Assembly: GCA_025965695.1 (NCBI GenBank)
Contig: JAOPWM010000080.1
Location: 1-64,000, forward strand
From: Blastococcus sp.
GTDB lineage: Bacteria; Actinomycetota; Actinomycetes; Mycobacteriales; Geodermatophilaceae
Direction: 5' to 3'
Length of the DNA: 64,000 bases
Shown here: piece after piece, positions 7,108-22,000 of the stretch
Layout of the letters: every line of letters begins with the position of its first letter
How positions within the stretch are numbered: position 1 is the stretch's first letter
Notes under the pieces: model-generated
Told to the model about the DNA's origin: nothing
The model's input: only the letters and a program-made list of their open reading frames with translations
Databases searched by the model: none
Made by a program: the position numbers and the translations under genes

Positions 7108-7180
7108 TAGCCCCGAAGGGATTCGAACCCTCGCTACCGCCGTGAGAGGGCGGCGTCCTGGGCCGCTAGACGACGGGGCC
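7108..7180 (-). tRNA. tRNA-Glu(CTC)
   Basis: GGCCCCGTCGTCTAGCGGCCCAGGACGCCGCCCTCTCACGGCGGTAGCGAGGGTTCGAATCCCTTCGGGGCTA; CTC anticodon in a 7-nt loop. Confidence 0.95.
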
Positions 7181-7306: not shown

Positions 7307-7379
7307 TAGCCCCGAAGGGATTCGAACCCTCGCTACCGCCGTGAGAGGGCGGCGTCCTGGGCCGCTAGACGACGGGGCC
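7307..7379 (-). tRNA. tRNA-Glu(CTC), second copy
   Basis: 73-nt sequence identical to 7108..7180. Confidence 0.95.
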
Positions 7380-7412: not shown

Positions 7413-7484
7413 CTGGGGTACCAGGACTCGAACCTAGACTAACGGAACCAGAAACCGTCGGGCTGCCAATTACCCCATACCCCA
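7413..7484 (-). tRNA. tRNA-Gln(CTG)
   Basis: TGGGGTATGGGGTAATTGGCAGCCCGACGGTTTCTGGTTCCGTTAGTCTAGGTTCGAGTCCTGGTACCCCAG. Confidence 0.93.
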
Positions 7485-12263: not shown

Positions 12264-13868
12264 TCAGCCGGAGACCACTGGACGGCGCATGACGGCGTAG
12301 GTCAGCGCGTCGACCAGCGCGTGCCAGGAGGCCTCCACGATGTTGTCGTGGACCCCCACGGTGGTCCACTCCCCCGCCCCGTCGGTCGTGGTGATCAGCA
12401 CCCGCGTGGTCGCGCTGGTGCCGCCCTTCCAGCCGAGGATGCGCACCTTGTAGTCCGCGAGGGACACCTGGGCGAGGTGCGGGTGGCGGCTGACCAGCGC
12501 CTGCCGCAGCGCGTTGTCGAGGGCGTTGACCGGACCGTTCCCCTCGGCGGTGCTGATGACCCGCTCGGCCGTCCCGTCGTCATTGGGAAGGCGCACCTTC
12601 ACCGTCGCCTCGCTGACGACGACACCGTTGCCCCAGTGCTCGACGGAGGTCTTGTAGCTCTCCAGCTCGAACAGCGGGGCGGGCGCGCCCGGCAGCTGGG
12701 CACGGAGCAACAGCTCGAACGACGCGTCGGCCGCCTCGAAGGACCACCCGTCGGCCTCGAGCACCTTCACCTGGTCGACGACGCGGCCGATGGCGTCGGC
12801 CTGGCCGGCGACGTCGACGCCGAGCTCGCGGCCCTTGAGCTCGATCGACGCGCGACCGGCCATCTCGGTGACCAGGATGCGCATGTCATTGCCCACGACG
12901 GCGGGGTCGAGGTGGTTGTAGAGCTCGGGACTCACCTTGATCGCGCTGGCGTGCAGCCCCGCCTTGTGGGCGAACGCCGAGGCACCGACGAAGGGCTGGT
13001 GGTCGTCGGGAGCGATGTTGGCCAGCTCGGCGATGGCGTGGCTGACCCGCTGCAGCTCCGGCAGGCACTCCGCCGGGACGACGGGCAACCCCATCTTGGT
13101 CACCAGGTTGCCGATCAGGGCGAACGTGTCGGCGTTCCCGGCCCGCTCGCCGTACCCGTTCGCGGTGCCCTGCACGTGGGTCACCCCGGCCTCCACGGCG
13201 GCCAGCGAGTTGGCGACCGCGCAACCGGTGTCGTCCTGACAGTGGATGCCCAGCCGGCCGGTGACCCGGGACCGGACGTCGGCGACCACCCGGCCGATCC
13301 CCATCGGCAGCATGCCGCCGTTGGTGTCGCACATGACGCCGACCTCCGCGCCGGAGGCGAACGCGGTCTCCAGCACCCGGACGCCGTAGTCGGGGTCGTG
13401 GGCGTAGCCGTCGAAGAAGTGTTCGCAGTCGAGGAAGACCCGACGGCCATGCCCGACGAAGAAGGCGACCGTGTCGGCCACCATCGCAAGGTTCTCCTCG
13501 AGCGTGGTCCGCAGCGCATCACGGACGTGCCGGACGTCGGACTTCGCGACCAGGCACACCACCGGCGTCTCGGCCTCGAGCAGGGCCCGCACCTGCCCGT
13601 CGTCCTCGACCCGGACGCCGGCCTTGCGGGTCGCTCCGAACGCCACCAGCTGGGCGTGCTGCAGGGACAGCTCGGTGCGCGCCCGCGCGAAGAACTCGGT
13701 GTCCTTCGGCAGGGCGCCGGGCCACCCGCCCTCGATGAACCCCACGCCGATCTCGTCCAGCAGCCGCGCGACGGCGAGCTTGTCGGCCACGGAGTAGCTG
13801 ACGCCCTCCCGCTGGGCGCCGTCGCGCAGTGTGGTGTCGAAGACGTGGAAGTCGAGGTCGGTGCTCAT
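12264..13868 (-). CDS. cimA: Citramalate synthase
   Basis: FHVFDTTLRDGAQREGVSYSVADKLAVARLLDEIGVGFIEGGWPGALPKDTEFF..., HCQDDTGCAVANSLAAVEAG, C-terminal LeuA-type regulatory domain. Confidence 0.93.
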   Translation of the reverse strand: MSTDLDFHVFDTTLRDGAQREGVSYSVADKLAVARLLDEIGVGFIEGGWPGALPKDTEFFARARTELSLQHAQLVAFGATRKAGVRVEDDGQVRALLEAETPVVCLVAKSDVRHVRDALRTTLEENLAMVADTVAFFVGHGRRVFLDCEHFFDGYAHDPDYGVRVLETAFASGAEVGVMCDTNGGMLPMGIGRVVADVRSRVTGRLGIHCQDDTGCAVANSLAAVEAGVTHVQGTANGYGERAGNADTFALIGNLVTKMGLPVVPAECLPELQRVSHAIAELANIAPDDHQPFVGASAFAHKAGLHASAIKVSPELYNHLDPAVVGNDMRILVTEMAGRASIELKGRELGVDVAGQADAIGRVVDQVKVLEADGWSFEAADASFELLLRAQLPGAPAPLFELESYKTSVEHWGNGVVVSEATVKVRLPNDDGTAERVISTAEGNGPVNALDNALRQALVSRHPHLAQVSLADYKVRILGWKGGTSATTRVLITTTDGAGEWTTVGVHDNIVEASWHALVDALTYAVMRRPVVSG

Positions 13869-13906
13869 GGGATCTCCCGGGTGCGGTGACGTGCGGCCCG
13901 AACACG

Positions 13907-13934
13907 AAAAAGACCCCCCGGGTACGGGAGGTCT
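13907..13934 (-). terminator. Attenuator terminator of cimA leader (AGACCTCCCGTACCCGGGGGGTCTTTTT)
   Basis: Inverted repeat AGACCTCCC/GGGGGGTCT followed by a U-tract, between leader ORF and cimA. Confidence 0.8.
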
Positions 13935-13962
13935 GCGCGCAGTCGGGGAGGTGACTGCGCGC
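13935..13962 (-). promoter_or_regulatory. Leader hairpin GCGCGCAGTC-ACCTCCCC-GACTGCGCGC (attenuator stem) overlapping the leader stop codon
   Basis: Perfect 10-bp inverted repeat; first G is the last base of the TAG stop of the leader peptide. Confidence 0.75.
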
Positions 13963-13994
13963 TAGCTGATGATGATCGTGCCGGTGGTGTGCAT
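13962..13994 (-). CDS. Putative cimA leader peptide MHTTGTIIIS (three consecutive Ile codons)
   Basis: ATG CAC ACC ACC GGC ACG ATC ATC ATC AGC TAG immediately before the attenuator hairpins. Confidence 0.75.
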   Translation of the reverse strand: MHTTGTIIIS

Positions 13995-14051
13995 CGGCAC
14001 TAGTAGAGCATGAGGGACCCCGGCCGCGGCACCCGCCACGACCGGGCCCGG

Positions 14052-19949: not shown

Positions 19950-21833
19950 TCAGACCTGTCCGTCGCCGAAGACCGGGCGCACGTCGCGCGCGGCCAGGAT
20001 GTCGTCGTTGCTGGCGCCCGCGGCGACCATCGGCCACACCTGGGCGTCGTGGCCGACGACGAAGTCGATGACGACCGGGGCGTCGTTGATGGCCATCGCC
20101 TTCTCGATCACCGCGTCGACGTCGTCCTTCGTCTCGCAGCGCAGCCCCACACAGCCCAGCGCCTCGGCGAGGAGGACGAAGTCGGGGATGCGCACCGCCT
20201 TGGGGGTGCCGTCGGCGTTGCGCGCGTGCAGTTTCGTGTTGGAGTAGCGACCCTCGTAGAACAGGGTCTGCCACTGCCGGACCATGCCGAGGTTGCCGTT
20301 GTTGATGACGGCGACCTTGATCGGGATGCCCTCGATGGCGCAGGTGGCGAGCTCCTGGTTGGTCATCTGGAAGCAGCCGTCGCCGTCGATCGCCCACACG
20401 GTGGTGTCCGGGCGCCCGTACTTGGCGCCCATGGCGGCCGGGACGGCGTAGCCCATCGTGCCCAGCCCGCCGCTGTTGAGCCAGCTGCCCGGCTTCTCGT
20501 ACTTCACGAACTGCGCGGCCCACATCTGGTGCTGGCCGACACCCGCCGCGTAGATCGCGTCCGGGCCGGCGATCGCGCCGAGCCGCTCGATGACGTACTG
20601 CGGGGACAGCGAGCCGTCCTCGGGCCAGTCGTAGCCGAGCGGGTACCGCTCCCGCCAGTCGTCGAGCTGCGCCCACCAGGCTGTCAGGTCCGCGATACGT
20701 CCGGCCTCGCGGTCACCGCGCAGCGCCTCGACCAGCTGGGCGATCGTCTCCTTGGCGTCCCCGACGATCGGCACGTCGGCCTTGCGGTTCTTGCCGATCT
20801 CCGCCGGGTCGATGTCGGCGTGCACCACGAGCGCGCCCGGCGCGAAGCTGGCCAGGTCACCGGTCACCCGGTCGTCGAACCGGGCGCCGAGGGCCACCAG
20901 GACGTCGGCCTTCTGCAGGGCGGTCACCGCGGTGACGTTGCCGTGCATGCCGGGCATGCCGAGGTTCTGGGGGTGGCTGTCCGGGAAGGCGCCACGCGCC
21001 ATCAGGGTCGTGACGACCGGGGCACCGGTGAGTTCGGCCAGCTCGGCCAGCTCGGCGCTGGCGTGCGCCTTGAGCACACCGCCACCGACGTAGAGGACCG
21101 GACGGCGGGCGGCCGCGATCAGCGCGGCGGCCTCGCGGACCTGCTTGCCGTGCGGGCGGGTGGTCGGCTTGTAGCCGGGCAGGTCCAGCCGGGGCGGCCA
21201 GGAGAAGTCCGTCGTCGCCTGCAGCACGTCCTTGGGGATGTCGACCAGGACCGGCCCCGGACGCCCGGTGCTGGCCAGGTGGAATGCCTCGGCGATCCGT
21301 TGCGGGATCTCAGCGGCGTCGGTGACCAGGAAGTTGTGCTTGGTCACCGGCATCGTGATGCCCCGGATGTCGGCTTCCTGGAAGGCATCGGTGCCGATCG
21401 CGGCGCTGGGCACCTGACCGGTGATCGCCACGATCGGGACGGAGTCCATGTGCGCGTCGGCCAGCGGGGTCACGAGGTTGGTGGCGCCGGGCCCGGAGGT
21501 CGCCATGCAGACGCCGACCTTGCCGGTGGCCTGGGCGTAACCGGTTGCGGCGTGGCCGGCGCCCTGCTCGTGGCGGACCAGGACGTGTCGCACCTTCGAG
21601 TCGAACAGCGGGTCGTACGCCGGAAGGATCGCCCCACCCGGGATGCCGAAGATCACCTCGACACCGACGGCCTCGAGCGAGCGCACGAGGCTCTGCGCCC
21701 CGGTGATGCCCGTGGCCGGCTCGACAGCGGCATCGGCCGTGGAACGGGCCGTCGTCTCGACGCCGGCCAGGGAGGCAGCGGCCTCGCGGGTGGCGGCCTC
21801 ACGGGCGGCGTGCTCGCTCGGAGTGGTGGTCAT
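19950..21833 (-). CDS. ilvB: Acetolactate synthase large subunit
   Basis: [81 protein letters not shown]-enzyme. Confidence 0.97.
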
Positions 21834-21883
21834 CTCGGCGTTCTCCTGGGCCTAGCTGTTGTGGGACGGGCTCGACGGGCAAC

Positions 21884-21916
21884 AAAAAACCCCTCGTGCC
21901 ACAGGCACGGAGGGGT
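21884..21916 (-). terminator. Attenuator terminator upstream of ilvB (ACCCCTCCGTGCC-TGT-GGCACGAGGGGTTTTTTG)
   Basis: Stem-loop followed by a U6 tract, between leader ORF and ilvB. Confidence 0.85.
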
Positions 21917-21917
21917 C

Positions 21918-21945
21918 AGCGCGTCGGTCGGCAGACCGACGCGCT
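21918..21945 (-). promoter_or_regulatory. ilvB leader attenuator stem AGCGCGTCGGTC-TGCC-GACCGACGCGCT
   Basis: Perfect 12-bp stem beginning inside the TAG stop of the leader ORF. Confidence 0.8.
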
Positions 21946-22000
21946 AGGCGACTACGAGGCTGCGCGGGCAGCCGGTGACGGGCAAGCAGGCGCGAGGCAC
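21944..22000 (-). CDS. Putative ilvB leader peptide (GTG start) MPRACLPVTGCPRSLVVA
   Basis: Small ORF rich in Leu/Val ending SLVVA*, directly followed by two hairpins; start uncertain (GTG 22000 or 22006). Confidence 0.6.
   Translation of the reverse strand: MPRACLPVTGCPRSLVVA

Follow-up and report, generated by a model that had tools for sequence, protein, structure and literature searches.

A candidate isoleucine-sensing leader-peptide attenuator upstream of cimA in Blastococcus and related actinomycetes

The cimA gene of a Blastococcus sp., encoding citramalate synthase, is preceded by an element that we propose to be a ribosome-controlled transcription attenuator sensing the supply of charged Ile-tRNA; we put the probability of the whole proposed explanation at roughly 0.8. 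CimA carries out the committing step of threonine-independent isoleucine synthesis. The element lies in the 64,000-nucleotide stretch of DNA that was analyzed (the window) and is read from the minus strand, as are all of its parts. It begins with a short ORF encoding MHTTGTIIIS* (13962..13994; ATG CAC ACC ACC GGC ACG ATC ATC ATC AGC TAG), whose three consecutive Ile codons (ATC ATC ATC, 13968..13976) lie 14, 11, and 8 nt ahead of the start of a 10-bp hairpin, H1 (13935..13962). H1 is formed by a 5' arm (GCGCGCAGTC, 13962-13953), a loop (ACCTCCCC, 13952-13945), and a 3' arm (GACTGCGCGC, 13944-13935), and its initial G coincides with the final base of the leader stop codon TAG. Directly abutting H1 is an intrinsic terminator, T (13907..13934), a hairpin (AGACCTCCCGTACCCGGGGGGTCT, 13934-13911) followed by the U-tract TTTT (13910-13907). 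T thus sits between the leader ORF and cimA (12264..13868, minus strand), the proposed regulated gene, and is 42 nt ahead of the cimA ATG at 13868. The cimA protein scored 610 bits against TIGR00977 (cut-off of 450). On the other side of the leader is leuB (15131-14052), and a promoter-like extended −10 sequence (TGC + TCTACT, 14002..14010, minus strand) is found 7 nt before the leader ATG. A first-pass annotation of this DNA had called the leader ORF correctly to the base, and the 10-bp hairpin starting in the stop codon and the U-tract terminator ahead of cimA were likewise confirmed. It had described a single such element; the cimA leader is indeed present, but a second one, an ilvB leader at 21879-21961, had been missed.

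The cimA leader is distinguished from its surroundings by several measures. Its fold energy has a z score of −5.8, with none of 200 shuffled sequences folding as well, and in the 1 kb around it a consensus scan gave 3 overlapping terminator-like sites versus 0.1 in shuffles. Three consecutive Ile codons occur in a single instance, the cimA leader, among the 737 short ORFs (5 to 25 codons) of the window, a tally in which that leader is counted three times via nested starts. Across the 64 kb, a search for canonical intrinsic terminators gave just two, those of the cimA and ilvB leaders. The cimA leader had only weak chance matches in Rfam and no family at gathering thresholds, which sets it apart from T-boxes and known riboswitches. 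In a 464-kb background made up of 400 kb from one relative (G008) and the window, a survey whose counts depend on the criteria and on that one genome, 8 terminator-like sites were found under criteria relaxed so that long-loop terminators counted. Three of these combine a convincing hairpin with a U-tract (the window cimA, window ilvB, and G008 leuS leaders), and all three have a hairpin against T. Canonical intrinsic terminators are also very rare in loci L187-L206, as in the window, and those found belong mostly to amino-acid attenuators. The window additionally contains three clustered tRNA genes on the minus strand (7108-7180, 7307-7379, and 7413-7484), two of which have identical Rfam scores, with a glutamyl-tRNA synthetase-like ORF nearby.

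cimA upstream regions were compared using the loci of 80 named contigs and the genomes of the family, in which the source genome falls among Blastococcus relatives. The Ile-rich ORF and the hairpins proved widely conserved in this upstream comparison, of the kind that the first-pass annotation had suggested, and the order Ile-rich ORF, H1, T is found in Geodermatophilaceae, Micromonosporaceae, Kutzneria, Thermobifida, Glycomyces, Nanopelagicales, and Streptomyces. This sample of loci leans towards conservation because it consists of the closest relatives by protein identity. The element persists while the sequence upstream of it varies among loci. A covariance model built on 58 cimA leaders, R1, matched 111 of 115 Geodermatophilaceae genomes, including 99 of the 99 good ones. 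An even draw from the phylum gave 397 genomes, 286 of them with a cimA above the cut-off; here, among the 15 other genomes with cimA that belong to the same class or order, R1 was placed at cimA in 14. Since only two genomes outside the class had R1 at cimA (G172, locus L148, and G206, by coordinates), the cimA version would appear to be mainly a feature of the class. Of the findings that the first-pass annotation had named as refuting the element, the only one to turn up was its absence from two Pseudonocardiales MAG loci (L027 and L031), in which cimA comes directly after leuB, without a leader or tandem hairpins. Between T and cimA, Streptomyces loci (L054-L085) have a further conserved sequence, around CCGGTCATTCCGGTAGACCGAGATC, which might be a promoter or another control element.

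The leader is a short ORF with many codons for the amino acid that the pathway makes, and its codon usage across relatives suggests that it is translated. At least two adjacent Ile codons were present in the short ORF of 96 of 100 distinct cimA upstream regions that had a terminator and enough sequence, and two of the four exceptions have their Ile codons split by one other codon. The peptide before the Ile run varies (MHTTGT, MDATRT, MTHSV, and MLSFAT), while the Ile codons are kept. ATT accounts for 93% of leader Ile codons in Streptomycetaceae and 92.5% in Micromonosporaceae but for 0% and 0.6%, respectively, of the Ile codons of cimA itself at those loci. Because leaders are rich in a codon that is almost absent from the genes they precede, their Ile codons look translated and chosen to be slow. 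In Geodermatophilaceae, the leader Ile codons are ATC, and runs of three are frequent. Of 89 distinct leaders, 83 have a distance of 8 or 11 nt from the last Ile codon to H1, and this spacing is kept in Streptomyces although the stop codon there is 27 nt past the last Ile codon. Leaders start with GTG or ATG, and the best −10-like hexamer, often preceded by TG, ends 6 to 8 nt before the start codon in 93 of 96 leaders, a spacing that is suggestive only, as the hexamer was picked as the best of several positions. With the start codon this close to the −10-like box, the transcript is probably leaderless. The proposal that isoleucine is sensed at cimA, also made in the first-pass annotation, is therefore supported by the wide conservation of the leader, the strong signs of translation of and selection for its Ile codons, and the ATT bias.

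A covariation check of the kind that had been called for showed that H1 covaries: both sides of a pair were changed in 76 cells compared to 24 in shuffles, none of 500 shuffles scored as high, and slid registers came nowhere near the true one. The lower pairs (GCGC) hardly vary, while the upper pairs change freely with compensation. H1 spans range from 22 to 77 nt, yet its adjacency to T is kept, with a gap of 0 nt in 75, 1 nt in 12, and 2 nt in 2 of 89 distinct cimA leaders, 0 to 2 nt in 34 of 34 ilvB leaders, and 4 nt in the most distant cimA leader (L148). In classical attenuators, the anti-terminator competes with the terminator for bases. H1 and T share no bases across the class, and the two coexist in equilibrium folding. 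The cost of folding without T was estimated with soft constraints, using the E. coli trp leader, its sequence checked against E. coli genomes, as a control. The trp attenuator resembles the cimA element in its end-product leader codons and ribosome-controlled terminator but has a base-paired anti-terminator, and its best T-free fold costs 4.4 kcal/mol, compared to 10.8 to 21.5 kcal/mol (median, 16.3) for the 89 cimA leaders. The 34 ilvB leaders required 8.1 to 22.6 kcal/mol (median, 17.4), a count that leaves out five without a terminator under the U-tract rule and two that were not parsed; the median for ten Streptomyces and Mycobacteriaceae ilvB leaders was 18.9 kcal/mol. These folds thus contain no anti-terminator competing with T by base pairing. 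The method cannot fold pseudoknots, and pairing of the H1 loop with T was tested separately, as described below.

We propose that the transcript begins at the leader start codon or immediately beside it, as promoter spacing suggests, and that a ribosome loads on the leaderless ORF. When isoleucine is ample, the ribosome would reach the stop codon, at or inside the 5' arm of H1, where its footprint would melt H1; T would then fold, presumably terminating transcription before cimA. When isoleucine is short, the ribosome would halt on the Ile codons, 8 to 14 nt short of H1, its front reaching the H1 foot, and H1 would fold. The leading edge of a ribosome is ~15 to 16 nt from the first base of the P-site codon. 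By this geometry, a ribosome whose A site holds the first Ile codon of a pair extends no further than the H1 foot, and one that has arrived at the stop codon covers all of the 5' arm or, in Streptomyces, has passed through it, which implies that H1 would be closed in starvation and open with plentiful isoleucine. Read-through in starvation is what would be sensible for a biosynthetic gene, so closed H1 would have to oppose T. T must close its lowest pairs in the polymerase exit channel, and a linker-free helix at its foot should therefore obstruct it: closed GC-rich H1 would not fit the channel at the T foot, the lower base pairs of T would be blocked, and polymerase would continue into cimA. 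This last step is a steric argument, since H1 and T coexist in equilibrium folding, and we regard its steric form as an even bet, while we have high confidence in the attenuator itself and in the steps up to the folding of H1.

Other roles for H1 and T are conceivable but less probable. H1 might serve only for pausing or synchronizing, the role usually assigned to the trp leader 1:2 hairpin, with starvation read-through then depending on something that the RNA does not show, such as ribosome-polymerase coupling or NusG/NusA. H1 does sit where a terminating ribosome would melt it, and a polymerase paused ~11 nt past H1 would be within T. We nevertheless consider this unlikely, as a pause hairpin alone leaves unexplained both the exact junction of H1 with T seen in every lineage and the means by which T is avoided. 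Less likely again is the switch suggested in the first-pass annotation, in which the G-rich 3' arm of T would be captured by the C-rich H1 loop, as a pseudoknot or long-range anti-terminator, with the ribosome choosing between these pairings. The window loop ACCTCCCC can pair over 7 bp with GGGGGGT, at least 5 loop-T pairs are possible in 43 of 89 distinct leaders, the leuA leader of actinobacteria has been reported to contain a pseudoknot (PMC1262725), and an anti-terminator sequence has been attributed to P1 of the Corynebacterium ilvB-II motif (PMC11109978). However, 26 of the 89 leaders, including Nanopelagicales with UACG loops, allow fewer than 4 such pairs, shuffled H1 loops pair as well in 44% of trials, and many ilvB relatives have H1 loops of only 3 to 5 nt. 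The switch therefore fails as a general mechanism, but one specific to Geodermatophilaceae, this genome included, is possible given the pairing of up to 7 bp.

Two further readings are very improbable. T lies between leuB and cimA and could merely insulate cimA from leuB read-through, the leader ORF being incidental. A scan found no promoter-like site in the region, T is very close to the cimA start, and relatives keep the Ile codons, the ATT bias, the spacing, and H1 itself even where the upstream sequence differs among loci. The least probable reading is that the terminated leader RNA of ~90 nt, with its two stable adjacent hairpins, is a trans-acting small RNA: the upper part of H1 changes freely, with compensation, above a basal GCGC that alone is conserved, there is no conserved single-stranded seed, and no Rfam family was matched at gathering thresholds. 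The attenuator with H1 opposing T is the reading we prefer.

The same architecture recurs within the window and beyond. A sister element on the minus strand (21879..21961), containing CTC GTA GTC GCC TAG and an H1 flush with T, precedes ilvB (19950..21833, minus strand), which encodes the acetolactate synthase large subunit (1118.9 bits against NF005860, with a cut-off of 881). R1 matched this leader with 43.8 bits (E value of 1.3e−9), and a possible GTG start is located at 22000. Most family genomes contain a second, weaker R1 match, which is the ilvB leader in the window and was treated as such in the fetched family members. Across the phylum, R1 was also found ahead of ilvB, leuA, leuS, leuB, and a small gene, and the leader codons correspond to the gene downstream, being Ile ahead of cimA, Leu ahead of leuA and leuS, and Val/Leu/Ile ahead of ilvB. 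Leaders of this plan precede leuA (L132, L160, and L164; one R1 match encodes MSQNLLLT), leuS (L154, L162, L165, and L194:4420-4560; the first three, like the G008 leuS leader MTGRLLLHRPC*, have Leu codons and an H1 flush with T), and leuB (L141). These elements share what defines a BCAA leader class, namely, BCAA codons, a stop codon at or in H1, and H1 followed by a terminator. Loci L137 (VLLIT*) and L149 have a same-plan BCAA leader ahead of a small gene of about 92 to 95 amino acids that had no Pfam match in either locus and, for the L137 protein, no NCBIfam match.

Streptomyces and Mycobacteriaceae ilvB leaders also follow the plan, with an H1-T gap of 0 in Mycobacteriaceae where it was measured. 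The Streptomyces leaders were located by IlvB protein search; the S. lividans IlvL peptide pattern had no match in six Streptomyces genomes. The Mycobacteriaceae ilvB leader in L211 has an H1 of entirely different sequence (GGCCCGTCCAACAT...ATGTTGGACGGGC) that is still flush with T, a complete turnover of H1 sequence with the architecture kept. We tentatively suggest, at somewhat less than even odds, that BCAA genes (cimA, ilvB, leuA, and leuS) across Actinomycetota have an anti-terminator and a terminator without sequence in common: a flush hairpin would obstruct the terminator sterically in the polymerase exit channel, and the leader ribosome would determine whether this hairpin closes.

Elements related to this one have been described for other genes. 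A close functional parallel is ilvB1 of Mycobacterium tuberculosis, for which attenuation has been demonstrated in cells by reporter, codon replacement, and terminator deletion (PMC13236596, 2026). Like the cimA element, it has a BCAA-rich upstream ORF and a terminator, and the position of the ribosome decides the outcome; it differs in its LVVI codons, where the cimA leader has Ile codons only, and in a mutually exclusive terminator and anti-terminator (PMC13236596), whereas no pairing conflict was found in the cimA or Mycobacteriaceae leaders. The candidate ilvB leaders proposed for Corynebacterium, Mycobacterium, and Streptomyces (Seliverstov 2005, PMC1262725), like the ilvB-II motif (PMC10272879), combine a short BCAA ORF, P1/H1, and a terminator, as here, and neither paper mentions cimA. 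Seliverstov 2005 called the mode of ilvB regulation unclear (PMC1262725), and a codon substitution in the S. coelicolor ilvB leader, quoted in the same paper as having no effect, counts against an attenuator. The Streptomyces leuS leader (PMC1262725; LeuL2 MRAVRLLLSEPR, PMC8079986) has the plan of the leuS leaders in G008, L154, L162, and L165, which differ from the cimA element in their Leu codons and in the gene they precede. The LEU element ahead of leuA is likewise a leader peptide of an actinobacterial BCAA gene but forms a pseudoknot, with a stem between the Leu codons and the leuA Shine-Dalgarno box, and no terminator was described for it (PMC1262725); the cimA element has two plain hairpins and an intrinsic terminator.

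As the first-pass annotation had supposed, a search of the searchable (non-subscription) literature found no described cimA leader. None is mentioned in the S. lividans reannotation (PMC8079986), nor in the main text of structured-RNA surveys, and cimA is not among the eight leaders listed from S. lividans RNA-seq. The cimA attenuator therefore appears to be undescribed so far, and on the comparative sequence evidence it seems to work like an attenuator by a plan that we did not find spelled out. It would be the first leader-peptide attenuator described for cimA, and it is common to the industrially important Streptomyces. It also bears on an observation that has long been puzzling, namely, that parts seem to be missing from the BCAA attenuators of actinobacteria (PMC1262725), for which it offers a concrete answer: the anti-terminator may act by its position flush with the terminator and not by competing pairs. 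The same plan is found in the ilvB leaders of the Mycobacteriaceae, where such an attenuator has been tied to a vulnerability of rifampicin-resistant tuberculosis (PMC13236596).
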